Of a stretch of 64,000 nt of DNA, positions 3,663-51,643 are shown piece by piece. The position numbers and the translations under genes are program-made. Source of the stretch: Magnolia sinica (lineage: Eukaryota > Streptophyta > Magnoliopsida > Magnoliales > Magnoliaceae); assembly GCF_029962835.1 (NCBI RefSeq), contig NC_080585.1, positions 60,437,443 through 60,501,442 of the forward strand. Direction: 5' to 3'. A model generated the notes under the pieces. The model did not search any database, had not been told where the DNA came from, and saw nothing but the letters and a program-made list of their open reading frames with translations. Position 1 is the first letter of the stretch. Every line of letters starts with the position of its first letter.

Positions 3663-4769
3663 GTGAGTTTTCCAACTTGATAGAATGGTTTTATATCATG
3701 ATTTATATTCTTTCATGTGAATAGAGAAGTGTAAACTGTTGAATAGTAGATTGATGTTTATGGTGTGGAAAAGTTTCTTTCTTGTTGTGTTCTTGCAATT
3801 CATTTCCGCATATTTTGTTTAGTTGTGCCATTAATTTTGCTAGTGGTTCTACCCACTGAAGTTCTGTTCTTTGAGTGTTTTCCATAAAACATGAGATATT
3901 GGGGGTGTTTATGGTTGATGAAGCTTCTTTCCCCCTTCTTGGACCTAATGTGGTTATATATTCTAAAATTTTCTTATTTTCGTCCATATTATAAATGTAT
4001 CTTATAGCCCTTCAAGGTTTATTATGTTATTATCTTCCTATATGTTGTGCTTTCCCAAAGGTTTCTGATTTTCTCTTCATTATTTTTGAAATCCCTTCAA
4101 CACTCTCATAGATCCAACTTTGATCTAGAATTTTATTTTCGAGGAATTGACAGGCCCTGGGTGTTCATTTTGAATTGCTCCACATTTTCCTATTAAGGCC
4201 TTCAGCAAGTCTAACACAAGGACATGCTAACAAGGTACTATGAAACAATGGGTACTCTTGGTTCCAAATGAATACTGAAAACAACCTCCCGGACCCTTGC
4301 AAACTGGGATAGGCATTAACCATGCAGTCCACATTGTCTTTATTTTAGACATATATTGAAGATGTGATGCATTTTGAAGCCCTTCAGCTCTCTTCGCATG
4401 AGATTTCCTCTGTAAGATTTCATGAACAAACTTTGAATGTCATACTGGTCCAGTTTCCATCATATTGGTCTTCATATCATATTGGTCCAGTTTCCATCTA
4501 CTATGAACATACTTGCAGCAATTATAGGACTACTTTCTAGTAAACACTCTTTGGAAACCAAACCATGAATGTTTCAAAAATAAAAGCAAAATCTTCCCAT
4601 GTTCCTTCTTTGTGCCTTTTCAAAGTTAAGGGGAGTTTCATTGGGCAGAAGAGAGGACCCTTCTCAAACAGGTTGGTTTGTTTAGGGCTTTGGAGAAATG
4701 GGTATATCTAGTTTTGGATGTGTGTGTTGATTAGCCAATTATTTTCATTATTATTTTTTAAATTAATAA
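3663..4769. other. AT-rich stretch without a recognisable gene
   Basis: No reading frame here resembles a known protein, and no further splice-compatible exon of the upstream candidate gene stands out. The part around 4150-4450 is less AT-rich and could be decayed transposon coding sequence on the minus strand, but I could not place it in a family. Confidence 0.4.
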
Positions 4770-5094
4770 GAATCGCCGATGGCTAAAACCGTCACAAACG
4801 CCAACGGTTTTGGCCATCGAACTTAGCCGTAAAAAACGCCAACGGTTTTGGCCGTCGCCCTCAGCCGTCGGGAATGACGATGGTTTTAGCCGTCGAAAAC
4901 ATGGCTAAAACCATTGCCCTTAGCCGTCAGGAACAACAATGGTTTTAGTTGTTGGTGAGGCAGACGGTTTTAATCCGTTGGCGAACAACGCCGACACACC
5001 CTTTCCTGATAAACCTTGTAATGGCTTGTAGACATCGGGGAAGGCCATTGCCGACGATTTTTAGCCGTCGTCATTGCCCTCTTTTTTTGTAGTG
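4770..5094. mobile_element. CACTA element terminal fragment
   Basis: The right border reads CTTTTTTTGTAGTG, the reverse complement of the usual CACTACAAAAA terminus of plant CACTA elements. Inside it are repeated short motifs of the type GCCGTCG and ACGGTTTTGGCC in both orientations, as expected of subterminal transposase-binding repeats. No matching left terminus is found within the preceding few hundred bases, so this is a single end. The sequence directly right of GTAGTG is gypsy reverse-transcriptase sequence, so this element inserted into that fragment or was joined to it by later deletion. It differs from the CACTA element at 7605: the subterminal motif here is GGCTAAAACCGTC rather than GCCTCGGTT. 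Confidence 0.65.
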
Positions 5095-5919
5095 ATTTTG
5101 TCCTTAATTTCTTTGAATGCCTTAAAGGTGGCATTAGTACATTTAAACTCTCCCTTTCTAATGTAGTCCATGATAAGAGCCATAATGGAACTAAAGCCTT
5201 GAATGAACCGCTTATAGAAAATAGCTAACCCACTGAAGTTATTCACTTCCTGAATTTTCCATGATTCAAGCCAACATACTATGGCCTTAACTTTCCCGAT
5301 ATCTACAGACATGCCTTTAAATGAAAGTGTGAAACAATGAACCCTAAGAAGATAACTTTGTCAGACATGAAAGAACACTTATTCAGGTTAGCATATAACT
5401 TTCTATCCTAAGGACCCCGCAAACTTGCATCAAATGGTGGAGGTGTTATTTCTTGAATGTATTATAAATGAAGATGTCGTCAAAATATACCACTAGGAAC
5501 TTACCCTTAAATGGCCTCAACACCTATGTCATCACTTTTATGAACATACTCGGAGCATTGGTAAAGCTAAAAGGCATAACTAACCACTTGTATAGCCCGT
5601 CATTCATCTTAAAGGCTTTCTATTCATCTCTTAGGCGAATACATATCTGTTTATACCCACTTTTGAGGTTAATCTTAGAAAAGATCTTGGCAACAATCAT
5701 CATATCCAACATGTCGTCAAGACGTGGTGTAGGAAATCGATACTTGACCATGATCTTATTGATGGCCTGACTGTCCATGCCCATGCATCAAATGACATCT
5801 TTCTTAGGTGTGAGGAGAATTGACACAACACATGGACTCAAACTCTCCTAAATGAACCATTTTTTAAGAAGCTCATTCACTTGCTTCTTCAATTCCACAT
5901 TGGAAAGTCGTGCTATAAA
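5095..5919 (-). mobile_element. Ty3/gypsy reverse-transcriptase fragment (fossil)
   Basis: Read on the minus strand, this stretch resembles the fingers-to-connection part of a plant Ty3/gypsy reverse transcriptase and the start of RNase H. Recognisable pieces include a decayed FxDDIxIY-type box and the downstream GLAIFYKRFIQGFSSIMA, which corresponds to the conserved GLAxFYRRFIxxFSxIxAP. It is truncated at both sides, lacks LTRs and is heavily decayed. It is bounded by a CACTA end on the left and by the old copia element on the right. Confidence 0.75.
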
Positions 5920-5928
5920 TGTCCTAGA

Positions 5929-5941
5929 GGGGGGGGGGGGT
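5929..5941 (+). repeat. Poly-G run
   Basis: A run of about 13 G residues sits just inside the terminal end of the old copia LTR, next to the CCTAGAGG motif. It is a likely site of assembly length error. Confidence 0.8.
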
Positions 5942-6165
5942 GAATAGGACAATACCAAATATTTCAATATAATGCGGAATAAATATATAATTAATCTCAA
6001 TTACGTAAAGTATTGAAATCTTGACTCAAAATAGTTCATAGGATAACCTTCACTTAAAAGATTTAGGTAGGACAACCTTACTTCATGACGTCTTTGAGAG
6101 CAATCACAATAAAAGAGATAAGCAATCATAACCAATGCATAAGGAGTTATAGTGGTTCGATGCAT

Positions 6166-6749
6166 TATTGAGGTGTGGAGCCAGCACACCAAAGGGTCAC
6201 TCGACCGATCGAGGGCCTGGCTCGACCGGTCAAGGAGGCTGCTCGACCAGTCAAACGGTGCTCGACTCAAAATCCAGCGAACTATATGTTTTAGAATTCG
6301 GTGGTGCTCGACCAGTCGAGTAGGGTGCTCGACCAGTTGAGTAGGTCGCTCGACTAGTCGAGGTTACACAAATTCTAGTCCAGATTTGGTGCAGACTACG
6401 TAAATTTGAGGTGGTTTTTGCCAAGGTGTGTAAGTGAGTTGCCTAAACTATAAATAGGGGTCCTAGGGTTATTTTAGGGTATTAAAAAGGGTTTTCTAAG
6501 CTAAGGGTTATCTCTGTGCATGGGAGCATCGAGAAGGTTAGTATATTGATTGTAATCTCATTTTTCTTCACAGTGTTTGCACCCATGGGTTTTTACCCTT
6601 GTTAAGGTTTTTCCACGTAGATTCTGTCTTGTGGTTTATTGGTATGCTTTGATTCTACTTCTAAATTATATTTCTTCTTATTTATCGTTTGTGGGTGAAA
6701 TTGGAGATTGGATCTCAGTTCACTAGCGTTGTTGGTGTGCTGCGCAATA
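6166..6749 (+). repeat. Left LTR of the TNT1-like copia element
   Basis: This repeat of about 584 bp matches 19233-19783. It carries repeated CTCGACCGGTCGA-type palindromes near its start, a CTATAAATAGGG TATA box, and ends at the tRNA-Met-like primer site. The start dinucleotide differs from the right copy. Confidence 0.85.
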
Positions 6750-7604
6750 ACTGGTATCAAAGCTATTGGTTTAGTTCAAGTGGGAGCGATGACGGAAAAG
6801 GCAATACTAGAATTGAAAAGTTTGATGGTTCAAACTTTGCCTTCTGAAAGATGAAGATGGAAGATTATCTATATTAGAAGGACCTCTATATTCCTCTAGA
6901 AGGAAAAGGGAAGAAATCAGAGAAGATGATAAGTGATGAATGATTTTTATTGGATCGGAAAGCTTTAGGAACAATCCGACTCTCTTTGTCTAAGAGCGTC
7001 GCCTTCAATATATCGAAGGTGAAAACCACAAAAGAATTAATACATGCCCTAGCTAGATGTATGAGAAATCCTCAGCGTCCAACAAGGTTCATCTCATGAA
7101 AGGCTATTCAACATGAAGATGTCAGATGGTGGAAGCATGGCTGAACATCTAAACGAGTTTAATACAGTCACGAGCCAGTTGGAATCCGTTGGCATTATTT
7201 TTTAGGACGAGGTCAAGGCATTATTGATCTTATCCAGTTTGCCAGACAGTTGGGATGGTTTGGTGATTTCCATGAGCAATTCTTTAGGGTCGATAAAACT
7301 AAAATTCGATGATGTGGCCGGTCTAATTCTCAGCAAAGAATCTAGAAGAAAGACATCGGGAGTTTCAGGGAATTCAGGGAATGTTCTAAATGTTGAAAGA
7401 TGAGGAAGATTGCTGAACAAAGAAGGCAATAAACACGGACGTTCTAAGTCGAGGAAGAAGTCCAGGGGATCAAAAGACAAAGACGGGTGTTAGCATTGCA
7501 GGAAGAAGGGGCACATGAAACATGATTGCAGGGCGCTTAAAAAATAAGAAGAAAGCTCTCAAGGCGGGAAGGATTCAGTGAATCTATCTGATGAGAGTGA
7601 CACA

Positions 7605-8045
7605 CACTACAAGAAAAGGGGGCTTTAGCCTCAGTTTAAAACAGTGGCTAAAAAGGTTAAAAACTGAGGCTAAAGCCTTTAGCCTCGGTTTTGCCTCAGT
7701 TATCCAAACCGAGGTTGAAACCCCCGTGGCTAAAGGCTTTAGCCTCAGTTTTAGCAACCGAGGCTAAAATGACTTTTATAGCCTTGGTTCTTCAAGTGAG
7801 GCTAAAAGAACCTTTTTAGCTTCGGTTTTTACAAAATGAGGCTAAATCAAAATTTTAGCCTCCATTGTTTCCAACTGAGACTAAATCTAAATGTTTGCCT
7901 CAATTGCTTCCAACCGAAGCTAAATCTATTTTTAACCTCGGTTCACAACAACCGAGGCTAAATCCTTTAGCCATAGGAATTTCAACCTTAGTTCTCAACA
8001 ACCGAGGCTAAATCCAAGCCTCGGTTACAAATTGAGGCTAAAAAT
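7605..8045. repeat. Left subterminal repeat region of the CACTA element
   Basis: About a dozen short motifs of the type TTTAGCCTC(A/G)GTT and its reverse complement AACCGAGGCTAAA alternate, many as hairpins of about 9-bp stem. They mirror the longer array at the right end and are the likely binding sites for a transposase supplied in trans. Confidence 0.85.
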
Positions 8046-8221
8046 GTTTAATTTTTTAAAATATTTATTTAAACTACTAATCCATTCATTCAATCCACTC
8101 ATGAAACAATCGATCATGAAAGCCACAAACCAACAAAATAGTTAACAACAGTCTACCTAAAGTTTTTAAAACAAACTCAATCAAACTGTTACACAACATT
8201 AGGTTCCACAAATATTTATAT

Positions 8222-8730
8222 TCTTATCTCTTCTATAATCTCTCTTCTTTTTTTTTCTTTGACTTTTCCTGTATCTGTTTTGAATCATCCGGTCTTTTAT
8301 TGACATTTCTTTCATCTAGAAGCTCTTGTAAAAGGGTTTCTATAGCAGCATCAGATTTCTCTTAGGCATCTTTACCTGCTAGATCCTCCAAACATTCCTG
8401 CCAAAGGAAGATAACCACTAACAACATTTAAACTCAACCTTAATGAAGCCATTAAACTAAATCAATACAGACCCGCAAGAACTTCTTCACTAAGAATAAC
8501 ATAATTCCCTGGTAATCAATGGCAAAGATGGCCTCAAAGCTCACGTTCCAACTGCCGCATGGCAGCAAGCTTCTACATAATCATTGCATCATAGTTACCC
8601 ATCTGCAGGACAGCAACCTACTAATGAGACATCACTAAAATGCCATTTTTATATTAAATATTCAACTAGAAAAAACTAACCTTATATGAAGGCTGCTTTT
8701 GATTTTCGCTTATGTCTAGTGCAACATTAG
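8222..8730 (-). pseudogene. Captured fragment of a probable DUF627/DUF629 ubiquitin-hydrolase-like gene
   Basis: Three exon-like pieces lie on the minus strand. 8681-8730 encodes PNVALDISENQKQPSYK before a GTTAGT donor. About 8475-8613 encodes KLAAMRQLEREL followed, after a frameshift, by AIDYQGIMLFLVKKFLRV. 8222-8397 (after TTTGGCAG) encodes ECLEDLAGKDA, EKSDAAIETLLQELLDE and a lysine-rich end. The run DYxxIxLxLVKxFLRx, LEDLAxKDAxEKSDAA, (L/A)LxEL resembles the C-terminal part of large plant proteins annotated as inactive ubiquitin carboxyl-terminal hydrolase-related (DUF627/DUF629 plus UCH). The family match is from memory of that motif. In-frame stops (a TAG in the middle piece, a TAA in the last) and the frameshift mark it as non-coding. 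It follows the TOR fragment directly, without an intron between them. Confidence 0.55.
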
Positions 8731-9327
8731 GTTGCGAATTAGGCAGCCCAAGAGTTTATCACTTTCTTCTCTGCATTTGTTATCTGCACTGCTTAAATAC
8801 CAAGAGAAAAGTTGTGATCTGAATATTTCAAAGATAATGATGTGAAACAAATAAAAGGGCATTCATTTCCCCATAAATCAATAATATTATTGACAAGTAG
8901 ATATCTTTCAGATTACTTTTGCTCAAGATGCATCAACAATTATATGAGATGGCGACGAAGTGCAGGTAGAACATATGCTGGATTCTTTTCAGACCATCTG
9001 CTAGCAACTGATATAGCAAACTCTCGAACATCAAAATCCTATAACATGGAAAAAAGAAAAAAAAAGAAAAAAAGATAGTGAACATGCCCCTATGTTCATA
9101 AACATTTTTCAAATAAAGATAACAGTTCAAATGCTCATAGAAGAGCCATTGGTAGGTTGTGCCAAAAATTATACCTCATCATTAAGAGCAACAAAGATAG
9201 CACTCAAACTATCAACCTGTGCCAAAAATTCATCGAAACCTCCATTTCCATGCAGAGATAGAAAGACTGACTGACGAACACTAACATCAGCATCTGCAGC
9301 AGCTGCAATTAGAAGTTTCTCCACAAT
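8731..9327 (-). pseudogene. TOR: Captured fragment of the TOR (target of rapamycin) kinase gene
   Basis: Three exons on the minus strand encode consecutive parts of the N-terminal HEAT-repeat half of plant TOR. 9327-9175 gives IVEKLLIAAAADADVSVRQS, then GNGGFDEFLAQVDSLSAIF and VALNDE. 9038-8917 gives DFDVREFAISVASRWSEKNP, then AYVLPALRRHLI and LLMHLEQ. About 8792-8731 gives SSADNKCREES and KLLGCLIRN. Splice sites are recognisable (TCTGCAG acceptor at 9328, GTATAA donor, ATAG acceptor at 9039, GTAATC donor). The middle exon has one in-frame TAA where the family has Gln. Only about 110 of roughly 2,470 residues are present, with no kinase or FRB domain, so no TOR function can be expected. Sequence switches to another gene inside the last exon near 8730. 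Confidence 0.9.
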
Positions 9328-9589
9328 CTGCAGAAAGCTCAGAGTTAATGATCAAGATGTACAAGCAAGACCATTTTGCAAGTACATATTTGATTCATAG
9401 AAGAACCTAAATAGAAGCATAAAAATTTACTTCACATAATCTTGCAAAGTTTTCATGACTTCGAAAAAAAAATGAGATAAAAATATCACTCTGAAAAGCT
9501 CCGAAAGCTGAGACATAATAGTGAAATTACAACCACATATTGCCTGAAGAAAATTTGAAACCTTCAAGTAGTAACAATTGGACAATGTT

Positions 9590-10134
9590 TCAGGTAAACC
9601 AAACCTCAAGCTTTGGTGCCTCCATAGGTTCTTGGAGGCATGGGTTGATGGGTAGCAGCTGGCATTGTGCATACTGCACCATCAGTTGATCCAAAATAAC
9701 CAAAGCAACCATGGCTTCCACCATCGGCACAGAACACCAGCAAGCAATTGTTAACATGAATCTTCTTCCATGATGTTTAATTAGGTTAAATGTAGACCAA
9801 GAAAGCAAATGACAGATTGAATGACAGGGGGGAGTTTCCCTATGAAGGAAGTTTCTGAACAGACCTCGAGGGACCACACAAGGATCATAGCGTCCTCGTG
9901 CAATGAGTTCAGTCTTATGTCGGTCTCTGGTCACTGTATGTTGTTTCCTCTGCAAGTGTCGCATAACAAGTCTGATAAGAAAAAAAAAATTAGCTGTTAG
10001 ACTGACATAGTGTTCCCTTTTCAATCCATGCTGAATGTACAAGTGTTCTATCAGGGAGTCCAACTTACTGCAATTGTAGAAGTAGGCTTGAAAGCTATCC
10101 TCATGGTTTTCATTTCACCATTTGATATTCCACC
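9590..10134 (-). pseudogene. CS: Captured 3' fragment of the chorismate synthase gene
   Basis: Three exon pieces on the minus strand match the C-terminal end of chorismate synthase, the plastid enzyme that converts 5-enolpyruvylshikimate-3-phosphate to chorismate in the shikimate pathway. 10134-10069 encodes GGISNGEMKTMRIAFKPTST before a perfect GTAAGT donor. 9949-9865 (after TTGCAG) encodes RKQHTVTRDRHKTELIARGR and YDPCVVPR. 9731-9590 encodes VPMVEAMVALVILDQLMVQY and AQCQLLPINPCLQEP up to a stop codon. FKPTSTI, TVTRDR and RGRxDPCVVPRAVPMVEAMVA are hallmark blocks of the family. The acceptor before the last piece is degraded. The first roughly three quarters of the enzyme, with most of the FMN and substrate residues, is missing. 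Confidence 0.92.
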
Positions 10135-10354
10135 CTACAAGAATTAGAAAAAAAATAAAAAAAATCATGGAAACCCAGGAAACACTTTACAGTTTGAATC
10201 TTAATGGACTGTTAAGAAAGGAAAGTAAAAAAGAAAGGAAAAGGGAACATGGAGACCCAGGAAACACTTTTCTTCTCTTGTGATGTTTATCTACCCATTA
10301 ATGTTTCTTCTCTTGTAAGTTACTCTAGTCTTCTTAAAGATGAAAGAGCCCAGA

Positions 10355-10518
10355 GGACCTGTTTGGCAAACACCTAAAATTGAGTTCACTTCATTTTTGT
10401 TAATTATAATCATGTACTAGAGACGATATTCTTGATAAGCAATAATTAAGATCTCTATTAAGAACTGTAATTAACCAAAATGAGATGAACTCATTTTTAG
10501 ACGTCTACCAAACAGGCT
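10355..10518. mobile_element. Tourist-like MITE, about 164 bp
   Basis: The ends are inverted repeats of about 45 bp. The left one contains CCTGTTTGGCAAACACCTAA and GAGTTCACTTCATTTT; the right one contains AAAATGAGATGAACTCATTT and CTACCAAACAGG. The centre is AT-rich. The same family occurs again, split by the Tat element, at 31517-31630 plus 60822-60900. Here the target duplication is no longer clear. Confidence 0.75.
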
Positions 10519-10939
10519 TGGAAGCAACTGTAACCAAATGGAAGTAGAACATATAGAAATTGTTAAAAAAATGAATTTAAGCAAACAGATTCACAATTTT
10601 CTTGCGAAGTTAGATACAGAGAGGGCAAAGTCCTGTTTCGAGTGGAAGGCACACCTATTGCTGGGTGTGGGTCTACCGCCATTCACCACCAGACAGTTAT
10701 ATAAAAGAAATCTAATTGATCAGGACATGGGAAATATTGACACAAAGATTGCATGAAAAGAGGACACATTGGTGGAATCAAGTGTGAGACTTCAAATCTG
10801 AATACATCGGATGGTAAGTTAAAAAATGTAGCCCTTTAATTAATAAGAGAAAATTAAGTAAGAAAGAAATGCCCTACTTGATTAATGGCACAAACAACGA
10901 GAACACTCATATGGAACAACACTGAGTAGATTGTCTCTT

Positions 10940-11870
10940 TCAGTTGTCGCTGGTAAGGAAATAACATGGATGCTCCAAAGAACAGTCAGTAACCATATCA
11001 CAGTTGTTGCCATCCAATCTCCTATTGTATTGGCATCGACGGGACATGAGATTGTTTTCTACTTTCTCAGCCTTTATCTCCTGTGCATAAGAATAAGATC
11101 TCTGGAATGATTGAGGCTTCTTCCCATGGTGGCCTCTAAATGAATAAGTCATACTTCCTTCACCTGAAATCTGCCATTGGTGCTTTTTCTTATTGAACAT
11201 CCTGCCATCTGCATGGGTGATCTCTCCCGTCATGAACATTCAATTATCAGAATTTGACATAGAATGATAATGGTATCCATGATTGAGAAGGACACCATTT
11301 GGTTTGGTTTTGTCCCACTGAAAACCCAAAGAACTAATATCAGAATAGCCACATTCCTCATCATAATACAATGCAGATTCCTTATCATTCATGCTCAAGG
11401 CCACTGGCATGGAAGAGTCATGCTGTTGGTTGGGGATGTCAAGGAAAAGCCTCTTGTTTGTTCCAAGGAAATCGTCCAATTCATGATCATTATACACACA
11501 ATTGTTATACCATTTACTTTGCTCAGATAAGGATCTGCTTTTCAGCCCCCAACCCGCGGACTTCCTCTTCTTGCTAGAATGCCCCGTAGTGCTGCTTTTA
11601 TCATGCAATCCGCTTAACTTGGCATGCTTCTTTGATTGATCATTATCTACTACATCTGATAGAATTTCTCTATCAGCTCTTAAGGATTTCTGGCTGCAAT
11701 TACCATAACTGTTTGCATCTTTTCCTTCTCCATATGACACGAAACTTTCAAGTTCAATTCTTCATTGAAATGGCTTTCTTGCAGATGCACCTTTACTCTT
11801 GTGTGTCTCTCTTGAGACATTTTCCATCCTTGCATTCATTGCCTTATTGCCTCTTGCAATGAAAATCATC
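10940..11870 (-). pseudogene. Captured fragment of an unrecognised nuclear-type protein gene
   Basis: A minus-strand open frame of 166 codons (11740-11240) continues, after one stop, into another of 99 codons (11239-10940), and is preceded by exon-like sequence to about 11870. The product is hydrophilic, rich in Ser, Lys and Asp, with a basic stretch SSKKRKSAGWGLKSRSLSEQ that could be a nuclear localisation signal and DHELDDFLGTNKRLFLDIPN after it. I do not recognise the family. The single stop between two long frames suggests recent loss of coding or a true C-terminus. It lies between the chorismate synthase fragment and the promoter-bearing fragment on the same strand, and may be a later exon of the latter gene. 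Confidence 0.5.
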
Positions 11871-13309
11871 CAAATCATCAAGATAAACTATAATGCTCTC
11901 AAGCAACTATATTGAACTAACTGGGTGTTGTAGTGATACAGCCGCTTCGCCGGCTAGTTCCAATCCAAAACCAATCCGATCATACAGCCAGGAGTTGGGT
12001 CTGGGTTTTAGAACTGGTTCTAAGATCACCAAAAGAAGGTAAATGAAACAACAGATAACATAGCATAGGCTATTTGGTTATATCTCAAACCAAACCAATC
12101 AAACTATCACCTATGAGAGTTTCATATAATCAGTCAATGAAAATCATTACTTTTAGTAGAGAGCAACTAAAACATGGATGTGGAAAATGATGCAGCAAAG
12201 AAAATGATTCAAGACTGAAACATCATTGGATTCATTTGCAAGGACAGGTTATGCAGATGTCTTTCTTTCTTTCTTTCTTTCTTTTTTTTAAAAAAAAAAT
12301 TATCTGTTAGATTTAGTGCATGTTAGACAACAAAAATCAAAATACAACTTCTGATATTGGAAGGTTGAATCTATTCAATCTCATGTGGGAGGACAAATTC
12401 TCTTGTGACCGAAACATCAATGCCAAAGGACTTTTGGAATTATAACATTGAGAAAGAAAAGGGAGAGACATATATGAACAACAACAAAAAAAAAAAATTT
12501 ATGGCCAAGTGGTAAAAAAAAATGCAAGCAACTAAATTTTTAATAACAGACCAATATTACAATATTCCCATTACATGGTGACCGTTAGAAAATCTTTACT
12601 TGCCTAATTCAAATGCTTTCTTCATTGCAAGTTGAGCGAGTTTAGGAAATTATATATCTAAGTAAGAGCATAGGCCTTAAGATTGGGCTTCTTTGCTTTT
12701 AAGGAGACTTCATGAACTTTTATAAGGCTATAAAGCCATTCTCTCTATGTCACACCAATCAGGCTTTTATCTCTACATCACACCAGTCAGGCTTGAAGAC
12801 CAAGCTTCAGGGATCTCTCTACATCACATTAATCAGGTGTTAGGCCCAGGCTTCTTTTACTTTAAGAAAGTCTGAAAACTCTGCTGTTGAGAGCAGTAAC
12901 AGCAGCCTTGTCTTGTACATCCATTGGTGTCACAACAATTGAATAGGAAAAGGCACGCACATTTTATAGATTTTCCATAATAACATCATTGGATGAAATA
13001 CCATAACTCAAAATAGTGAATCTACTAAGTCAAATCCTAGTTAGGCTAAAGTCTACTGTTGCACATATATTCTAATTGTCTTCAAGCCCCATATGATCCA
13101 AGAAACAGTAACAGCAAATACAAAATCTGGAATCTTGAGCTACTTCAACTGACCACACAATCTGCTTTCTTCTTCTCTATTGTTTCTACAATAGGATTTC
13201 CCTTCTCTGATTTTAGTTTGAATCTCTGTGTGTGTGTGTGTGTGTGTGTGTGTCTTTGTGTGTGTTATACACACTCCTGACACTAAGAAAGAGAAAGAAG
13301 AAGAAGCAC
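11871..13309. other. Intron-like spacer inside the CACTA element
   Basis: The stretch has no recognised coding sequence. It holds a TTTC tetranucleotide run near 12261-12285, a small cluster of repeats of the type CTCTACATCACACCAGTCAGG at about 12740-12840, and a GT dinucleotide run at about 13226-13256. It lies between two exon-like fragments on the minus strand and may be their intron. Confidence 0.5.
13226..13256 (+). repeat. GT dinucleotide microsatellite
   Basis: About 15 uninterrupted GT units lie in the intron-like region just downstream, on the minus strand, of the donor site of the coiled-coil exon. Confidence 0.9.
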
Positions 13310-13757
13310 AAACCTGCTGCCATTCACTCGACCGTTCCATCCAAGCAACAGAAGCTGATGGCAAGAAATCCCTCCCAAAGTCATTCCTCTGCTTGTAAAG
13401 AACTGTCATCCTATCTGCTTCAGCAGCATTCCTTTCCATAATCCTCTCCTTGAAACAAGCCTCAGGGACCGGATCTAACCCCTGAGAAACCCTAATTCTC
13501 CGAATCCTTGAAAAATCCATGCAATACTTCCCTAAATCGCCGCCTTCTTCCACATTCTTGCCAAACGTGGCCCTGCTCTTCGATCTGTGCCCACAGATCT
13601 CTGCTTCCTTCACATCCTCCTCATCATCCGCCTTCCTCGACATGAACCGGATCATCTCATCCCGCTCCTCAACGTTCTGCCGCAGCTTCTTGACACAGAT
13701 CCGCAATTCGGCCTCCGATTTCTCCATATCCTCGATTCGGAACATCGGATCACTAAT
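13310..13757 (-). pseudogene. Captured first coding exon of an unrecognised coiled-coil protein gene
   Basis: A GC-richer minus-strand frame starts with ATG at 13745 or, in frame, at the next ATG (MEKSEAELRICVKKLRQNVE), and runs to a GTTTGT donor near 13312. It encodes a charged, probably helical N-terminus (EAELRICVKKLRQNVEERDE, RFMSRKADDEEDVKEAEI) and later EADRMTVLYKQRNDFGRDF. No stop interrupts the roughly 145 codons up to the donor. The composition and lack of damage suggest recent capture or maintained coding. I do not recognise the family. Upstream lie a putative 5' UTR with a GGTAAGT-type donor and a TATA box. It is the most 5' of all host fragments in the element. Confidence 0.6.
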
Positions 13758-13960
13758 TTTAAAGATACTTACCTCGATCGAGAGAGATGTTCCGAACGGA
13801 AGGTAAAGATATTAGGAAGAGAGACGATTCGGTGGGGATGAATTGAGGTCGAGTGAGAAAAGCTAGCAGAGATGGAGTTTCACGAAGTGAGAGAGAGCTG
13901 TAGAATTCGATCGAAGCTGAGAAATGAAATTGGGGATTTCGGATATATAGGGTGGGGTAG
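13758..13960 (-). promoter_or_regulatory. Captured promoter and 5' UTR driving minus-strand transcription
   Basis: On the minus strand a CTATATAT box lies at about 13943-13950. About 30-40 bp downstream begins a pyrimidine-rich leader (CAGCTCTCTCTCACTTCGTG and following), typical of plant 5' UTRs. It ends in a GAGGTAAGTA donor near 13770, implying a short 5' UTR intron before the ATG at 13745. This is the arrangement of a genuine plant promoter and not of transposon sequence. Any transcript would run through all captured fragments toward 8222. Confidence 0.55.
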
Positions 13961-14130
13961 CCGCGGATTAGCTACTGACAGGTCGACTACCGACGTCACC
14001 AACTTCTGCGGGCCCCACCGTGATGCACGTATTATATCCACACCGTCCATCCATTTGAAGAGATCATTTTAGAGCATGATCCAAAGAATGAGTCAGATCC
14101 AAACCTCTAATGGACCTCACCACAGAAAAC
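13961..14130. mobile_element. Half of an inverted-repeat element next to the captured promoter
   Basis: The stretch GGATTAGCTACTGACAGG, then GACGTCACCAA, GGGCCCCACCGTGATG and CACCGTCCATCCATTTG is shared with one arm of the inverted-repeat element at 56805-57345. Only one arm is visible here. Confidence 0.6.
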
Positions 14131-14744
14131 AGTTTTTCAAAAAGGAAAAAAGTCAAGCTTCTTAATTTTCTTTTTTAATTCTAAATTTTTTCAAGATTAT
14201 AAATTTGTTGAAATTTATCAAAAAAAAATTAAAATTCTCAGTTTTTTAAAAATTATCAAAAATAAATAAATATATCAATTCTTAATAGTTTTAGAAATTC
14301 TTAATTTTTTTCAGAATTTTTAATTATTTGAAATTTCTCAATTTTTTAAAATTTTCCAATTTTTTTCAAGATTCTCAAATTCAAAATTCTTTTTTTTTTT
14401 TCAAAAATTTCAAAAATTCTTAATTTTTTAAAAATTCTCAATTTTAAAAAAAAAATCATACTTTTTCATAATTATCATTTTTTTATTCTTAATTTTTCAA
14501 AAAAAATAATTCTTAATTTTTTTAAAAGTTCTCAAAACTTTTAAAAATTCTTAGTTCTTAGAAATTTCAAAATTCAAATCTCTTCAAAACTCTCAATTTT
14601 TTTTTTCAAAACTCTCAATTTTTTAACAATTGTCTCAATTTCTTTTCAAAATTCTCAATTTTTTCATAATTGTCAAAATTTTTAAAATTTATTAATTCTT
14701 TCAAGATTCTCAATTTTTTTTTTTCAATATTCTTAAATGTATAC
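14131..14744. repeat. AT-rich low-complexity tract
   Basis: About 600 bp of irregular repeats of AATTCTCAATTTTTT, AATTCTTAATTTTTT and CAAAATT-type units. No coding potential. It separates the captured genes from the right subterminal array. Confidence 0.85.
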
Positions 14745-16123
14745 TTTTAGCCTTAGTTCATATGCAAGTGAGGCTAAAAAGTAGACTTTTGGCCTTGGTT
14801 CCTATGCAACTGAGACTAAAAAGTGGACTTTTTACCTCGGTTCCTATGCAATTGAGGCTAAAAAGTAGACTTTTGGCATGACTCAAATTGAGAAATCCAC
14901 TAGCTTGGATTTCACAGTCATTGAGCATTCGTGATTTCATGAAGCTACACGTGAAAGTGCAAGCCATTTTATAAACATATGAGAACTCTCACACATATCA
15001 TGTTAGCATGTGTGGTGCATTTGTATTCATGGACACTTGATTGTTGAAGTAGGACCGTTGGATATTTTTCATTTTAACCATCCAATAAATGTCCACCGAT
15101 CCAGTCAAATAATCAAATATCACCATACACTAATTAATTTGAATTACAGGTATGCCATTTATATAATTTCTAAGTGCTTGCGTATCATCCATCACATTCT
15201 GCCAGAGTATCGAAGGTAGACTTTTCGCCTCGGTTCCTATGCAACTGAGGCTAAAAGGTAGACTTTTCGCCTCGGTTCCTATGCAACTAAGGCTAAAAGG
15301 TAGACTTTTCGCCTCAGTTCCTATGTAACTGAGGCTAAAAGTATACTTTCCGCCTCGGTTCCTATGCAACTGAGGCTAAAAAATAAACTTTTCGCCTTAG
15401 TTCCTATGCAACTGAGGCTAAAAGGTAGACTTTTCACCTCGGTTCCTATGTAACTAAGGCTAAAAAATAGACTTTTTGCCTCAGTTCCTATGCAACTGAG
15501 GCTAAAAGGTAGACTTTGCGCCTCGGTTCCGATGCAACTGAGGCTGAAAAATAGACTTTTTGCCTCGGTTCTTATGCAACTGAGGCTAAAAGGTAGACTT
15601 TTCACCTCGGTTCCTATGCAACTAAGGTTAAAAAAATAAACTTTTTGCTTCGGTTCCTATGTAACTAAGGCTAAAAGGTAGACTTTTTGCCTCGGTTCCT
15701 ATACAACTGAGGCTAAAAGGAAGACTTTTCGCCTCCGTTCCTATGCAACTGAGGCTAAAAGGAAGACTTTTCGCCTCCGTTCCTATGCAACTGAGGCTAA
15801 AAGGAAGACTTTTCACCTCGATTCCTATGCCACTGAGGCTAAAAAGTAGACTTTTCGCCTCAGTTCATAAGCAACTGAGGCTAAAAGGTAGACTTTTTGC
15901 CTCGGTTCCTATGCAACCGAGGCTAAAAGGTAGACTTTTCGCCTCGATTCCTATGCAACTGAGGCTAAAAGGTAGACTTTTAGCCTCGGTTCCTATACAA
16001 TTGAGGTGAAAGATGAACTTTTAGCCTCAGGTCCTTAGCAACCGAGGCTAAAAGACACATTTAGCCTCCATTTTTTCAACCGAGGCTAAAAAATTGTGGC
16101 TAAAGGCCTATTTTCTTGTAGTG
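14745..16123. repeat. Right subterminal array of the CACTA element, 42-bp hairpin units
   Basis: About 20 tandem copies of a 42-bp unit run from about 15218 to 16060, with three more at 14745-14875. Each unit contains GCCTCGGTT, a 7-bp loop CCTATGC, and AACTGAGGC, so each can fold as a hairpin, followed by TAAAAGGTAGACTTTTC. Since 42 is a multiple of 3, the array yields long open frames with a 14-residue period on both strands; these are not genes. About 340 bp of unrelated sequence (14876-15217) interrupts the array. The units are the likely binding sites of the CACTA transposase. Confidence 0.93.
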
Positions 16124-16126
16124 ACA

Positions 16127-19100
16127 GAGGCGTTGATCTTGTCTCTTGATGCGATGAATGAGTTTTAGGTCATAGACTAGGGTGCTTCATTTCATGCCAC
16201 TTCGTATAAGGAAGTTCTGCGTGATTATGTGTCAGGTGACTTCAGGAGAGTCTACCTGGGTGATGAAGAGCCGTGCAGTATTGTTGAAAAGGGAGACGTT
16301 CATATAAGTCAGAAAGATGGAACGCCTTTGAAATTGAAGGATGTTAGACATGTACTGAGTTTGAGATGGAATTTAATCTCAGTGGGGCAGTTGGCCGATA
16401 CCAGATATGTGACGACATTCACTAGTGATTCTTGAAAGATCACAAAAGGTGCCTTGGTGATACCTCAAGGCAAGAAGGAAGGTACTTTATATGTGACTTC
16501 ATGATCGTATAGTTCACTCACAGTGGCATCAACTGGAGTGAATGGGCAGTTATGGCATAGAGGTTGGGACATATGAGTGAGAAAGGGATGAAAGTACTAT
16601 TGTCAAAAAGGAAACTACCAGGGCTAAAGTCTATTGACTTGGAATTCTGCGAGGACTGCATATATGGCAAGTAGAAGAGGGTAAGTTTTAAGAAGATAGG
16701 ACGCGCTCCAAAGATGCATCTGTTAAAGCTTATACACACTGATGTGTGGGGACCGGCACAGGTATCATCTCTTGGTGGCTCACGTTATTTCGTTTCTTTT
16801 ATTGATAATACTAGTAGAAAACTGTGGGTCTATATCTTAAAGCATAAATCTGATGTATTTGATGTATTTAAGAAGTGAAAAGTAATGGTAGAAAATAAGA
16901 CAGGTAAAATAGTAAAATGTCTCAGATCAGATAATGGGGAAGAATATTGTGATAAGAGGTTTGAAGAGTATTGTGCAGCAAATGGAATCAAACATCAGAA
17001 AATGATTTCAGGGACACCGAGTAGAACGGTGTGATTGAGCGCATTAACAGGACTATCCTTGAGCGCCTTACCAAGCCAAGATGTTTTGGGCAGATGCTAT
17101 GAATATTTCCATATATCTCATCAATATAAGTCCCTCAGCCCCGTTAGATGGTGGCTACCAAAAGAAACGTGGATTGGGAAAGAAGTGAACCTTGCACATC
17201 TCAAATTGTTTGGTTGCACTTCATATGTTCACATTGATGTAGAGCACAGAAACAAGTTGGATGCGAAGCACGGGAAGTGCACATTTTATAGGCTACGGAC
17301 AGCATGATTTTGGCTACCATTTTTGGAATACAAAAAAACTGAAAAATCATCAGAAGCAAAGACATATTCTTCAATGAAAAATTAATGCATAAGGATAGTG
17401 TGCAGCAAAATAAGGCCGAGAAGAAAGAATTCGTAGAGTTGGAAGAGTTACCGGACACGGGTGTTATAGTGTCACAAGATGAGCATGCACAGGAGCAGGA
17501 GCATAATGAGGCAAAGCCACAAACACCGGTTGTGAGAAGGTCTACTCGGGGGAGGAGACCCAAGGTCCGATACTCACCCTCCTTACATTATTTACTGCTG
17601 ATAGCTAATGGTGAACCAGAGTATTTTGAAGAGGCATTACAGTTAGATACATGGGTTAAGTGGGAGCAGACCATGGATGATAAGATGGATTCTCTTGAAT
17701 CCAATTGTACATGGGAGCTAGTCACTCTACTTAAGGGTAAGAAAGCTCTTTATAACAAGTGAGTTTACAGACTGAAGGAGGAGCATGATGGTTCGAAACG
17801 GTACAAGGCTAGATTGGTTGTGAAAGGGTTCCAACAAAAGGCAGGTATCGACTTCACTGAAATATTTTCACCAGTGGTGAAAATGTCTACAATTCGTATG
17901 GTTTTGAATATAGTGGCTACAGAGGACTTACATCTAGAGCAATTAGATGTTAAGATAGTCTTTCTTCATGGGGACCTTGAAGAAGAGATATATATGTATC
18001 AGACGATAGGATACATGACACCAAGAAAGGAGAACAAGGTGTGTAGACTGAAGAAGAGTCTATATGGCCTAAAGCAGGCCCCGAGGCAGTTGTACAAGAA
18101 GTTCGACAGTTTCATGTCGGGAAACAGTTTTAAGAGATGTCATGTAGACCACTGTTGCTTATTGAAGAAGTTTGATACATTATAGACCATTCTTCTTCTG
18201 TACGTAAATGATATGCTTGTGACCAGATCAAGCATGAAGGACATCTCAGATCTCAAAAGACAACTGTCTAGAGAATTTTTCATGAAGGATTTAGGAGCTG
18301 TAAAACAAATTCTAGGCATGAGGATAAAGCGTAACAGGGAAAACAAGAAACTAGTTTTGTCACAGGCAGATTACATAATCAAGGTACTTGATCGATTCAG
18401 TATGGGAGGTGCTAAGCCAGTTAGCACTCCATTAGCCAACCATTTCAAGCTTTCTAAGAAGCAAGGTGCGAACACGCGGGAGGAACGAGACTACATGGCT
18501 AAAGTTTCATACACGTCAGCTATTGGGAGTCTCATGTATGCTATGGTGAGCACAAGGCCAGTATTGTTCAAGCAGAGAGAGTTGTTAGCAGGTTCATGAA
18601 TAACCCTGGGAAGGAACATTGGGAAGCTGTGAAGTGGATCCTTAAATACCTGGTAAGTACTATGGATGTGGGGCTGTGTTATGGATGATCGAAAATCAAG
18701 CTACAAGGCTACATAGATTCGGATTTGGCAGGAGATCTCGACAGCAGAAAAAGTACTACAGGGTATTTCTTTACTTTAGGTAGTGTTGCAGTCAGTTGGG
18801 TCTCTCAGTTACAGAAGATAGTATCTATTAGTACAACGAAAGCAAAATATGTTGCAGCTACAGAAGCGTGCAAGGAGATAGTGTGGATGCAAGGTTTCAT
18901 GGAAGAGTTGGGAAAGAAGCAAGCAGATTGCAAACTGTATAGTGACAGTCAGAGTGTAATACACTTGGCTAAGAATTCAGCCTTTCATTCAAGGACCAAG
19001 CATATTGACATCAGATATCACTTCATACGTTCGTTACTCGAAGATGGATCGATTGCTTTAAAGAAGATCCATACAAGTGAGAATCCTGCGAATATGCTGA

Positions 19101-19162
19101 CCAAGGCAGTCACACGGGAGAAGCTGAAGCTTTGTTCACCTTTGATTGGTCTTCAGGCTTGA
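16127..19162 (+). mobile_element. copia pol region, right half of the TNT1-like element (fossil)
   Basis: The order is protease remnant (SGA-type motif with FHATSYKE), GAG-pre-integrase with zinc-binding residues, integrase core, a proline-poor linker, reverse transcriptase from about 17770 (GFQQKAGIDFTEIFSPVVK, YGLKQAPRQLYKKFDSF) and RNase H from about 18720 ([44 protein letters not shown]). The order INT-RT-RH is diagnostic of Ty1/copia. The frame has several breaks. Confidence 0.9.
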
Positions 19163-19232
19163 AGACGGGGAGGTGGTGCACTCCGAATGTAGAGGACGAA
19201 AGATTATGGTGATGTGTCTCCAAGTGGGAGAT

Positions 19233-19783
19233 TGTTGAGGTGTGGAGCCAGCACACCAAAGGGTCGCTCGACCGGTCGAAGGCATGGCTCAACCAGTCGA
19301 GCGGTGCTCAACTCAAAGTCCAGCAAGCTATATGTTTTAGAATTCTGTGGTGCTCGACTGGTCGAGTGGGCCGCTCGACCAGTCGAGGTTACATAGATTC
19401 TAGTCCAGATTTGGTGCGAACTGCGTAAGTTTGAAGCGGTTTTCACCAAGTTATGAAAGAGAGTTGCCTAAACTATAAATAGGGGTCCTAGGGTTATTCT
19501 AGGGTATTAGAAAGGGTTTTCTAAGCTAAGTTAAGGATTATCTCTATGCGTCGAAGCATCAAGAAGGTTAGTATATTGATTGTAATCTCGTTTTTCTTCA
19601 TAGTGGAAGTTTGCACCCGTGATTTTTTACCCTTGTTGGGGTTTTTCCACGTATATTCTATCTTATGGTTTGTTGGTATACGTTGATTCTACTTCTAGAT
19701 TATATTTCTTCTTGTTTATTGTTTGTGGGTGAGACCGGAGATTGGATCTCGGTTCACTAGCATTGTTGGCGTGCTGCGCAACA
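19233..19783 (+). repeat. Right LTR of the TNT1-like copia element
   Basis: This repeat of about 551 bp begins TGTTGAGGTGTGGAGCC directly after the purine tract and ends GCGCAACA. It has the same CTCGACCAGTCGA palindromes and CTATAAATAGGG box as the left copy. Confidence 0.85.
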
Positions 19784-21061
19784 TACTTAACCCCATACCT
19801 ACTCCACTCCCAAAATTACTACCCTCGTAATTTTGTTTTCACTATTTAAAGGTTTTCACAGGATCACCTTAACAACATGATACAGTTCTTATGATTTTCA
19901 CGAGTTATCACAATAATGGGCTCACCACAAAACAACCCGCTGATATTTCCAAGCTATCTCAGAAAAACCTAAATGAAATAAAATAAATACACAATACTTA
20001 TCTTCATATGCCAAATCAAAGATGTAACTGAAGCTTGATTGCGGCATCTTCTTTCTTAGGAAGTTGATGAAGCAGTATATGTTCAACCTGAAATAATATA
20101 GGGAACTAATATATTTTCAATATAATAAACAAAACCCCAATTGCTGCAAATTCTATTATCTGAATCTCAACTAGAGTTTAGATAACGCTCTTAAATGCGA
20201 TTGAAACTAGCTTGAGAAAGAGAACAAATTAAGCTAAATAAGAATTAGAATTACCATACAAATAGCTTAAGGGGGGCCAAACTTTCTCTCTAACTTTGAG
20301 GAGATTTTTCACCAATTTTCATTGTTGAAATGAATGAGAGAATACCTCTATTTATAGCCAAAGGATTTGGAAATTCAATCGCCTTGATTTTTTGTTCGGC
20401 TGGCCAAATTTCAAAAATTGTGATCCAACGGTTTCGGATTCCGTGGAATAAGAAAAATCAAATTTTTGGCTGGCACAAGCCAATTCGGCTAGTCAAACCC
20501 AAAGTCGGGCTGATCGAACTTGCCACGGAAAAATCAATCATTGCTGTAAACTTTCCCGAATTATGTTAGGTTGGCCGAATTTGGTTAGGCTTGCCGAACC
20601 CGAAGTCGAGCTGGCCAAACTTCACAGTATTTTACATTGTATACATTATTATTACGGTCATAATTTAAGAACACCTAACCTAGGGTCATTATAAGGTTTA
20701 TACCACCTGATGGTTGACATATACAAAGTGCTTCAGTCTTTGAACCATGCAAAGTCTTTAACACTTGAGATGTTAAGCCGATCTTGAGATGTTGAGTCAA
20801 TCTTCCATTGATCTTCATGAGTTGTCAAAGAATGTTTAAGCATGCTTGTGATCCATCCAGAACTACAAAATTTGACAATACTAAGTGTGTTTTAAGTATA
20901 AGCACTTATAATTTCCCTTTTTGTCAATTTTGTGATAAAACACAATCATACACAACTCATCATATAATCAAACAACATCTCATGGACTCATCATACAATC
21001 ATGAAGCTTTGGTTCAAGAGAATATCTGTACACTCCATATAGTATATTCACTTGAATGTTC

Positions 21062-24000
21062 TGTAACATCCTGGATTTTTTCCAACTTGGCAATGGACGT
21101 CCTTGGACGTAGAACTGCTCTAGGACCTTATTTTGTTGTAATTAGGGCGTAATTTAGTTAAGTATTAATAGCTTGGATCACTTTCTATACAACCTACAAA
21201 GGCCCAAGTACTACCTCAAGCAAAAATCACCCAGGACCAAAACCTTTAGGAATTAGGTCGATATTAGCAAGTGCTAAACTAGAGTATTTATGAAATTAGT
21301 ACTAATCATTTTAAATATGATCTGCAAGACCCAAACCATGTAGTATCATTGACACTACATTACCCTGAAATCTAGAATCTATCCCTAAACCCGGTTGCTC
21401 TTGGGAGCACACCGAAACTTCGTATTAGATTGGACCGCACGTCGAAAGTTCGATGACCGCAAAACTATACAGTTATGACCGCATTACTGGACTTGACAAC
21501 CCCCTCAGAAATCAAGTCTTAATTGTGTCTAGAAATGCACAACTTGAGCCTGGAGCAAAGTGTGTGAGGAACGTGGATATCTTTAGAAATAAAATTCGAA
21601 TTTAAGTAATCTGAGTCGTGTCGCTTGCAGGCCAAATATAAGGATTCAGACCGTCAGAATCTGACCCGAATACACCCTCGGATCAGGAAAAATGTCTCAT
21701 ACATAGCAATGCACTTGTGGCCCTGATCGAGTGTCCGTGACCGTTGAACTGGAACTGGTCCGCCACGGTTGATCTGTAAACCCAATCGGAGCAAAAACTC
21801 AGCTTGACCTAGATTCATGGTTAGGGAGCTTAAGTCCGACCGCAAGTGGAAAAAGGGCCACCAGAAGTGCTCCGTTGGGCTGAAACAAACGCCCTTTGGA
21901 TATAACCTAAGTATACCATGGCCTTGGGGCCATTGACATCGATTCTGGGCTTATAAATAGCCCTTAAACCCACCTCTCTCTCTCCTATACGAATTTCTCC
22001 AAACCCTAGGAGAGAGAAGAGAGAAATGGAGAGAAAAGAGTGGAGATCGAAGGGAGATCCTTGGAGTTTGCTGTCGTCCTTCTGTTCTGCTACTCCACGC
22101 CTTGATTCACCCTCCCACATCGCTACACCGTTGATTTTAACTCCATTTTTGGGTAAGAAATCCTAACCTTAAACTGATATAGATATCCAAATAGAGCAAT
22201 AGGCGAAATAGCTAACCTATTTCATGAATCAGGTAGCCGTTGTGCCATAGACAAAGACTTAGCTTTTAAACTGTGTTCGATACGAGTCTACCGGCGAAAG
22301 GTGCGGACTATAAACATTTAGGTTATGGTTTTCAAGGCTTTCAATGTCAGTAATGGTTTATGACTGACTTGATTACTGTCACATGTGATTAGATGCGATG
22401 TTTCCTGTATATTACACATATAGGTAAACTATGTTGATTTTAATGCCTTTCATGTGTTTGTTGAAATGCTTAAATGAATATGAAATTATGATTTCTGCTT
22501 GCCATGATTATTGTTCAGAATACATGCTTGTTGTATGGGTGGCAACTCCTTGGTGGAAGGATTTGCTATAATATAGGTTATAACTAATTTATTTGATATA
22601 TGATGGAACGTGTAGACTAAGTGTTTGATGAAATGTTTGAATGAGAAATGGTCCAATGAATTGTATTTATTTAGGGCGTTGAGATAGGATTTCCCAACTA
22701 CCTTACCTAGGTATATAATTTCCTCCATGTAGTCTTAATTTCAACTACGTGGTTTATGTATAAAATGCACATGTATAATAACATGTTTTATGTGATTGAT
22801 AAAATATCTGAATGAGGTATTGTTTGTTGAACTATATTTAAAAAGGGTGTTGAGATAGAATTCTCAGCTACCTTATCTTTATGTATAGTTTCCTTCATAT
22901 AACCTAAATTTCGATTATGTAAATTTATGGATGAAATGCAATATATGGCAATATATGTAATGTGTTTGATGAAATGCTCGAATGAGATTCATGTTGGAAA
23001 TGTTCGCTAAATGCTTATATGATTATCACATGTCTCCATATGCTTTATTTGAATATGATTGGGACTAAAATTTAGTCCAGGCAATCGGTAACAATTCCTA
23101 TTTAAGTGGCCGCATTAGTCTCGCCACAATTGATGCGTTCGGTGAATCCGAGTCGTACGATGATCGTCGACAACAGTACCTTGTCGATTAATTCAGCGTA
23201 CACTCGTACCAGTCGAGCTCGTCAAGTAACCCGATTGACCCAATGTATGTTCACCATGTATGGACGCTACTGCTTGAACCTAAGGTACCAAACTTACCAG
23301 TGAAAACCCCTTTAACCTTGGTACCTCGATCCGCTAAGACTCATGAGCCGGGCATGGTGGTATGGGACACTGTGGTCGAGCTGTCGGCCTACGCTGGGGT
23401 GACGAGCCTCCCCATAGTGACCAGTAAGCAACCCAAACTTGTGAGCCGAAATGGTGGTATGAGATACTGTATTCGAGCTGTCAGCCTACCCTTGCATAGC
23501 CTGGCTATGGTCCCCAATCAGGTTGGTGACGAGCCTTCGAAAATAGACTGCCAATTGGTAGGGTATGAGTGGTAGTGACCTCGAGTGTACTTTGAGACTG
23601 CGTTGAGGCAACGAGTCTTTTCGTAACAATAAGAGTACACTAGGCCTGCACTGATAAGGTGACAAGCCCTTTGCAGTGACCTAGAACCATATCATCGTAT
23701 GAGATTTACTAGGATTGACGACCCTAGAATGGATCACCGTTTGAGATTTGTATAAGGGAGGTACCTTAGCTTCCCAATCCTACTGTATGAAAAGTACTAA
23801 TGAGAACTTGGTAATCACATTCATGCACCGCACTGCATGTGCCATTTGGCGTTGGGTAGAGCACTGAAGAAGTGACTGACATGCGCGACCGTTAGATGAA
23901 GATCGTAGAGGGAGTGCAGGCGAGGGCTTGCATCATTTATACATACCATTCCTGCATTAATCAGAGTACTTAAGGATGTTTGATTGTATTGCTTTATCAT

Positions 24001-28550: not shown

Positions 28551-28587
<37 letters not shown>
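28551..28587 (+). repeat. RPT3: GA microsatellite in the RPT3 5' UTR
   Basis: About 18 GA units end directly before the start codon at 28591. GA runs in 5' UTRs of housekeeping genes are common in plants. Confidence 0.9.
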
Positions 28588-28589
<2 letters not shown>

Positions 28590-28590
28590 G

Positions 28591-29092
28591 ATGGCAGCCT
28601 CGGCCATGGTTCTCGATCCCAAGCCATCAACTCTCCCGCCACCTCCTTCAATCCCAGCCATCCGATCTGATCCTGGCCAGCCCACCTCCTCACAATGCCC
28701 CGACGACGATGATCTCTACTCCCGCCTCAAGTCCCTCCAGCGCCAGTCGAATTCATCGACATCCAAGAGGAGTACGTCAAGGACGAGCAGAAGAACCTCA
28801 AGCGCGAGCTGCTGCGGGCCCAGGAAGAGGTGAAGCGGATCCAATCGGTGCCGCTTGTGATTGGCCAGTTCATGGAGATGGTTGATCAGAACAACGGGAT
28901 TGTTGGGTCGACAACCGGATCGAACTACTACGTCCGGATCCTTAGCACGATCAACCGGGAGCTCTTGAAGCCCTCAGCGTCGGTGGCGCTGCACCGGCAC
29001 TCCAATGCGCTCGTTGATGTGCTGCCTCCAGACGCGGATTCCAGTATTTCGCTGCTGAGTCAATCGGAGAAGCCCGACGTTACTTACAATGT
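28591..29092 (+). pseudogene. RPT3: RPT3 (26S proteasome AAA-ATPase subunit 6B) exon 1, with a one-base frameshift
   Basis: This exon encodes the N-terminal part of RPT3, one of the six AAA ATPases in the base of the 19S proteasome regulatory particle. It starts at 28591 (MAASAMVLDPKPS), reaches [14 protein letters not shown], and then continues in another frame as [72 protein letters not shown] and [16 protein letters not shown]. The family has LQRQLEF where this copy has one base fewer after CGCCAG near 28746. The exon ends at 29092 before GTCAGA, where the family continues DIGG. The coiled-coil and OB-fold parts are covered; the ATPase domain (Walker A and B) is absent from the window. Either the intron is very long or this is a broken copy. 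A sequencing error could explain the missing base. Confidence 0.85.
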
Positions 29093-29140
29093 CAGAGTTT
29101 CTCTATCACTCTCGATATCTTATGTATGTATTTATGTATT

Positions 29141-29642
29141 TGATGCAAACCCGAAAGGAAAGCAGATAAATCAAGAAGAAAAGAAAGAGATTGTGGTAAA
29201 GACCCAACAATCCCCTAGCCAAATGCTAGAGTCACTAATACAAGACTGTGAGCAAGCTCAACAGTCCTTTAGTCTTGATCCATAGGTCATAGGTCCTATT
29301 TATAATCAACCTTACAAATATGTAATAAAAGACATGAAATCTAAAAATCTATGAAATAGGAAAGCACCTAAGTAACAAAGCATTTTATAATTAAGAAAAT
29401 GCCTAAAATAAGAAGATACTTAGATAAGAAAATATTTAAAATTATTTCCTGCCTAAAAATAAAGTATGGAAGAAAGAGCAGATTTCCTAATCTAGAAATT
29501 TGATAGATATAAGAAGTGGTGATGAGCTAAAAAGGGAAGATGGTCCTTTTTTTGTACACACGTGCAAAGCGTGCTCGCGTGAGATGCGGGCATTTTCGTC
29601 AAATCTTGATCAATCAGCATGTGTGGCCATTTGGTTGCATCA
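29141..29642 (-). repeat. Left LTR of the small LTR element (its 3' LTR)
   Basis: 502 bp, collinear with 30607-31192 apart from a block of about 80 bp that is absent near the middle. Both LTRs share the tract from CCTATTTATAATCAACC to TGGCCATTTGGTTGCATC. Confidence 0.9.
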
Positions 29643-51640: not shown

Positions 51641-51643
51641 ACT

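Follow-up and report, generated by a model that had tools for sequence, protein, structure and literature searches.

The CACTA element and its termini

The DNA analyzed here is a 64-kb stretch of the Magnolia sinica genome (contig NC_080585.1), referred to as the window, and our subject is a transposable element of the CACTA (En/Spm) superfamily that occupies positions 7605-16123 (∼8.5 kb) within it. The element is nested in a retrotransposon of the Copia type, and between its ends lie fragments of the host genes for the target of rapamycin (TOR) kinase and chorismate synthase, together with a gene to which no family was assigned and a short gene fragment that adjoins the TOR piece. The features that define the element, its cargo, and its host are as follows.

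7602-7604, left target site duplication ACA, from comparison of the flanks
7605-7617 (+), left terminal inverted repeat CACTACAAGAAAA, 13 identical bases
7605-8060, left subterminal region, repeats with GAGGCTAAA / TTTAGCCTC cores and a period of 38-39
8233-8736 (-), gene fragment, probable exons 8736-8681, 8602-8470, and 8397 to ∼8233
8731-9327 (-), TOR kinase fragment from the HEAT-repeat region, exons 9327-9175, 9038-8917, and 8791-8731, with two introns
9605-10134 (-), chorismate synthase C-terminal exons, 10134-10069, 9949-9865, and 9732 to ∼9605
10940-13727 (-), gene with exon 1 at 13727-13314, an intron, and exon 2 probably from 11842 to a stop at 10942-10940
13728-13960 (-), likely native promoter and 5' leader of the 10940-13727 gene, with TATATAT at 13949 (motif only)
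14735-16054, right subterminal region, a 42-bp repeat in two blocks of 3.4 copies (14735-14877) and 20.1 copies (15213-16054)
16111-16123 (-), right terminal inverted repeat, a 13-base match to the left end
16124-16126, right target site duplication ACA, from comparison of the flanks
6164-19781 (+), host Copia retrotransposon, long terminal repeats (LTRs) at 6164-6747 and 19231-19781

That 7605-16123 is a single CACTA element is well supported. Its inverted termini start with CACTA, as is typical of the superfamily, and the 13-mer CACTACAAGAAAA occurs without mismatch twice in the window, at 7605-7617 (+) and 16111-16123 (-). With up to one mismatch there are three matches compared to 0.21 expected, a number reached in 0 of 100 shuffles, and the third of these (one mismatch) is outside the element at 5082-5094. 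The terminal inverted repeats are mismatch-free over 13 bases and then continue as a 33-base arm with 85% complementarity, and ACA flanks both ends of the element, a target duplication of the 3 bp that is also typical of the superfamily. Hence the exact CACTA termini and the ACA duplication that an earlier note on this DNA had described were both found as claimed.

The subterminal regions are equally diagnostic. The 9-mer GAGGCTAAA (≤1 mismatch) is present in 35 copies in the element, with 11 at 7605-8060, 23 at 14740-16123, and one between them, while the remaining 55 kb of the window contains 3 copies. Its reverse complement is found 22 times in the element (7 in the left subterminal region, 15 in the right, and none between) versus 7 times outside. 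The two subterminal regions therefore hold 34 of the 35 copies and all 22 of the reverse-complement copies, and since this repeat is common to both ends and is found mostly in this element, the two ends belong to one family. The repeat unit, at 38-42 bp, is longer than the units of 10-20 bp demanded by the published description of another CACTA family. The right subterminal array is interrupted at 14878-15212 by ∼330 non-repeat bases, which may be an insertion or the relic of an earlier end. No second copy of the element is present elsewhere in the 64-kb window.

Insertion into a Copia retrotransposon

The CACTA element is inserted between the gag and protease of its host. Domains were sought on the plus strand in 4602-7604 and 16124-22000, with stops read as X, and they are in the expected order, with gag upstream of the CACTA element and Pol_BBD, gag_pre-integrase, integrase core, SH3, and RVT_2 downstream, although spread over three different frames. 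When the empty site is rebuilt with one copy of ACA, the Copia frame continues across the junction, and the stops found there are those of the Copia element itself. We take this frame to pass from a zinc knuckle of the CCHC type to the protease region. Among 542 aligned bases the two LTRs have 62 differences, of which 52 are transitions and 10 are transversions (Kimura two-parameter distance 0.127), and judged by this divergence the host element looks old. Because it is nested within the Copia element, the CACTA insertion must be the younger of the two, and its position inside an element with two LTRs thus places a limit on its age.

Host gene pieces carried by the element

The TOR and chorismate synthase fragments were both recognized in the earlier note, and both identifications stand on database matches. 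The spliced TOR piece, of 112 amino acids, is most similar to mTOR (chain 5h64_A, residues 656-763; E 2.4e-19), and all 13 sequences that matched at E ≤ 0.01 are mTOR (11) or TOR2 (2). It is clearly partial, consisting of three internal exons, whereas the matching chains have ∼2,500 residues, and an in-frame TAA at 8942-8940 interrupts it at a position occupied by Q in the aligned mTOR. The spliced chorismate synthase piece, of 97 amino acids, matches Pfam PF01264 (E 4.4e-22) from position 259 of the profile to its last, 327. Every one of the 10 PDB sequences found at E ≤ 0.01 is a chorismate synthase (best E 1.9e-17). Its lesion is of a different kind, with TT in place of AG before the last exon, so that a splice acceptor is missing. 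As the note had stated, these fragments are on the minus strand and retain their introns: AG or GT is present at 9 of the 10 TOR and chorismate synthase splice boundaries, a count that disregards the outer end of each fragment on its low-coordinate side. A scan of the TOR exons against viral contigs gave 70 pattern matches and no relatives, a result of little weight given the nature of that collection.

The third piece, the 10940-13727 gene, is the one that appears to have brought its own promoter. Exon 1 starts with an ATG at 13727 and runs without a stop through 138 codons to a good donor, while the acceptor of exon 2 at 11842 was selected by phase and exon 2 contains in-frame TGA codons at 11764-11762 and 11242-11240. 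The longest open stretch, of 223 amino acids (13811-13140, which includes some of the leader and intron), is longer than any found when the interior was shuffled 300 times (longest per shuffle on average 114 and at most 187 amino acids; ≥173 amino acids in 4 of 300). In local shuffles the length of the exon 1 region (166 amino acids) was reached in 3 of 500, as was that of the exon 2 region (173 amino acids). No family was found above the cut-off in Pfam or NCBIfam, which agrees with the earlier description of an unrecognized gene within the element. A match to HAP1_N (E 0.0036, 17 bits compared to a cut-off of 33.9; E 0.034 for the joined exons) was rejected as chance, as were weak NCBIfam matches that were far below the curated cut-offs. 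Exon 1 had no relatives in prokaryote genome contigs (58 pattern matches) or viral contigs (35), which says little.

The fourth piece, at 8233-8736, had been labeled ubiquitin-hydrolase-like. We likewise presume that it derives from a plant ubiquitin carboxyl-terminal hydrolase-related protein, a label that no tool supported: there was no Pfam match, and the solved structures gave only two designed proteins at E 5 and 5.4, which we regard as chance. If read under this label, the fragment contains in-frame stops and a frameshift. It abuts the TOR piece within an exon at ∼8731, and the two are mutually out of frame. Hence the cargo comprises pieces of at least two, and probably four, unrelated host genes.

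The absence of a transposase had also been claimed, and it holds within the sensitivity of the search. No transposase domain was matched by Pfam in six frames at E ≤ 1, but a short decayed piece could have been missed since the genuine chorismate synthase exons scored weakly in the same scans (E 0.014 and 0.069). As only full-length CACTA members encode a transposase, its absence fits a non-autonomous member of the superfamily.

Proposed origin and decay of the element

We propose that 7605-16123 is very probably a non-autonomous element of the Pack-CACTA kind, in which host gene pieces (TOR and chorismate synthase by database match) are enclosed between CACTA ends, and which has decayed since it was nested in the Copia element. 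Transposase would have been supplied in trans by a full-length relative elsewhere, and the four host gene pieces may have been gained stepwise. The probable route of capture is a published one, by which aberrant excision of related copies lying close together gives a hybrid element that encloses the DNA between them. The element would then have entered the Copia retrotransposon, as recorded by the 3-bp duplication, with subsequent decay mainly by mutation in a methylated, silenced context, as CpG loss suggests. Transcription from the captured promoter may persist, while the captured pieces would no longer yield their proteins.

The ratio of observed to expected CpG is low in most of the cargo, at 0.24 for chorismate synthase, 0.33 for TOR, 0.38 for the 8233-8736 fragment, and 0.28 and 0.17 for exon 2 and the intron of the 10940-13727 gene, respectively. 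For comparison, the element as a whole has 0.46 and the DNA outside it 0.68; an AT-rich block at 14130-14735 has a value of 0.00. These values fit methylation-driven decay of most of the cargo. In addition, each of the four captured genes is damaged. The element is probably inert as a coding unit. A transcript that reads through all of the fragments, as the note suggested, may be made, but one long chimeric protein is impossible because of the stops, frameshift, and lost splice acceptor within the fragments.

Several points weigh against this proposal. Not all of the cargo looks decayed, since exon 1 and the leader of the 10940-13727 gene have a CpG ratio of 0.85 and the 138 codons are open. 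This CpG-rich promoter end may always have been so or may be less decayed than the rest, and a value of 0.85 may be native given that the exon of an RPT3-like gene in the same window has a ratio of 0.92. The subterminal regions are hardly CpG-poor (0.58 and 0.63), which weakens the methylation argument, and low CpG in introns may also be native. Moreover, the lesions in the 10940-13727 gene and the 8233-8736 fragment were judged without a homologue in hand, and the stepwise capture is a step that we infer.

The earlier note found the co-oriented capture of several unrelated essential genes striking, but neither the shared orientation nor the type of gene is in itself remarkable. Four fragments would be co-oriented by chance in 1 of 8 cases and three in 1 of 4, by simple arithmetic, and essential genes are no obstacle as cargo because only pieces of them are present. 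The common strand has a bearing on two other explanations. In one of these a Helitron or a rearranged locus, for example, had already united the pieces elsewhere, and CACTA ends then enclosed them all at once. This would account for the single strand of all pieces and for the TOR piece directly abutting the 8233-8736 fragment within an exon at ∼8731, but stepwise capture explains the same facts and there is no positive evidence for a prior union, where ends of other kinds of element were not searched for; a literature search on the orientation of genes in Helitrons gave nothing decisive among the matches listed. We consider this origin unlikely. That the locus is an artefact, with real parental genes split by misassembly or ends contributed by two different CACTA elements, is hardly credible. 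The interrupted right subterminal array (14878-15212) and the difference in repeat period between the ends (38-39 versus 42) are what one might cite for it, yet the terminal 13-mers match, as do the ACA flanks, the core repeat is shared by both ends and found mostly in this element, and the Copia frame is unbroken at the empty site. Likewise, the genes are partial, fused within an exon, and inside one element nested in a retrotransposon, so that both of the objections the note had raised against itself are made unlikely.

The other explanation that draws on the common strand is that the element is an active gene shuffler, in which the captured promoter generates one minus-strand pre-mRNA spanning all the fragments that is processed to functional chimeric mRNAs, encoding truncated proteins or giving rise to small RNAs against TOR and chorismate synthase. 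In addition to four pieces on the same strand, it has in its favor a TATA box and an open first exon, the AG or GT kept at 9 of the 10 TOR and chorismate synthase boundaries examined, and, by eye, a possible donor (GAG|GTTTGG) that the final codons of chorismate synthase lead into and that agrees in phase with the first TOR exon. Transcripts of this sort are reported for the soybean element Tgm-Express1, driven by the promoter of the gene that it occupies (PMC1947982). However, the 10940-13727 gene, TOR, and the 8233-8736 fragment all have stops, the chorismate synthase acceptor is missing, the fusion of TOR with the 8233-8736 fragment is out of frame, and the location is a decayed retrotransposon rather than a gene, and we regard such activity as very improbable. 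There is also only a slim chance that a working captured promoter gives one spliced minus-strand RNA via the 10940-13727 gene, chorismate synthase, TOR, and the 8233-8736 fragment, the product of which would be a truncated protein of ∼164 residues (if exon 2 starts from 11842) or small RNAs acting on TOR and chorismate synthase. The element would be of greater importance only if the captured promoter does drive a chimeric RNA in the plant. A decayed, non-autonomous Pack-CACTA element is thus the reading that we prefer.

Other features of the element and window

Two further repeats are present within the element.

10358-10516, MITE-like (miniature inverted-repeat transposable element-like) insertion with imperfect inverted ends CCTGTTTGG..., compared by eye, and no clear target duplication
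13993-14133, repeat-derived sequence a short way upstream of the promoter, with 80% identity to 57325-57185 and weaker copies at 56.7-58.4 kb

The right arm of the MITE-like insertion has relatives at 31518-31565 and 60849-60888, and a blastn comparison of its two halves gave only an 8-base inverted match among the matches listed. No RNA families or tRNAs were found (ARAGORN was run with the bacterial code).

Elsewhere in the window, 28560-29090 (+) is the first exon of the RPT3-like gene (a proteasome ATPase; chain K of 8amz is the best match, E 8.1e-64), the frame of which shifts, by eye, near the start of the matching part, so that it may be a broken copy. Just downstream are direct repeats at 29138-29641 and 30604-31191 (+) that are ∼90-92% identical and look like the LTRs of an insertion in an intron of this gene. 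A 3.1-kb direct repeat is present in three copies (38407-41503, 41686-44783, and 51643-54739), where the first and third are 95.6% identical and the second is ∼88.8% identical to the others. The minus strand between copies two and three has domains of a retroviral-type protease, RNase H, and integrase, and the repeats may be the LTRs of a large element of the Gypsy type that has three of them. An open frame at 35104-35601 (+) encodes an RVT_1 reverse transcriptase (E 7.8e-22), possibly of a long interspersed nuclear element, and one at 49649-50410 (-) resembles PF20167, 'Putative plant transposon protein', at a score below the threshold (39.2 bits compared to a cut-off of 45).

Comparison with known CACTA elements

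Capture of multiple genes by CACTA elements is already known, as CACTA elements of soybean, grapevine, and Chenopodium with captured host sequence have been published, and the element described here is a further case of a multi-gene Pack-CACTA. None of the papers among the matches listed in a search for CACTA elements with chorismate synthase or target of rapamycin was, by its title, on this subject. Capture by neighboring Pack-CACTA elements is described in PMC8903248 and reviewed in PMC13317346, and the present element resembles these Pack-TYPE elements in having DNA-transposon ends, a target duplication, captured coding DNA, and no transposase that could be found. The detection method of PMC8903248 demands repetition in the genome, whereas the element here is known from one 64-kb window. 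Cactavine-5 of grapevine is also a CACTA element with transduplicated host coding sequence, but two copies of that family hold one piece of a pentatricopeptide repeat (PPR) gene beside the transposase and in the opposite orientation (PMC2528002). The CACTA-like Jozin of Chenopodium shares captured gene fragments and subterminal repeats but has kept its coding domains, and its captured fragments (one of 80 bp) are in the 5' region outside the coding sequence (PMC8978399).

The closest precedent is Tgm-Express1, found in the wp allele of F3H in soybean, and it removes what the earlier note saw as striking in multi-gene capture. This 5.7-kb CACTA element contains five unrelated gene fragments that act as cassette exons, and at least 12 distinct transcripts were cloned from the locus, 11 of them with captured exons and all begun at the F3H promoter (PMC1947982). 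Like the Magnolia element it carries several unrelated host fragments with exons and introns kept. The introns of its CDC2 and FPK fragments are reported to be spliced out (PMC1947982), which implies a sense orientation, and a common orientation of the other three is our weaker inference; the main text of that paper does not use the word orientation. The two differ in that Tgm-Express1 is 5.7 kb, is located in an intron of an expressed gene, and uses the promoter of that gene (PMC1947982), whereas the element described here is 8.5 kb, resides in a retrotransposon, has captured other genes, and is predicted to have its own captured promoter. Hence it adds a clear case of one CACTA element with pieces of several unrelated host genes, one of which has apparently brought its own promoter.

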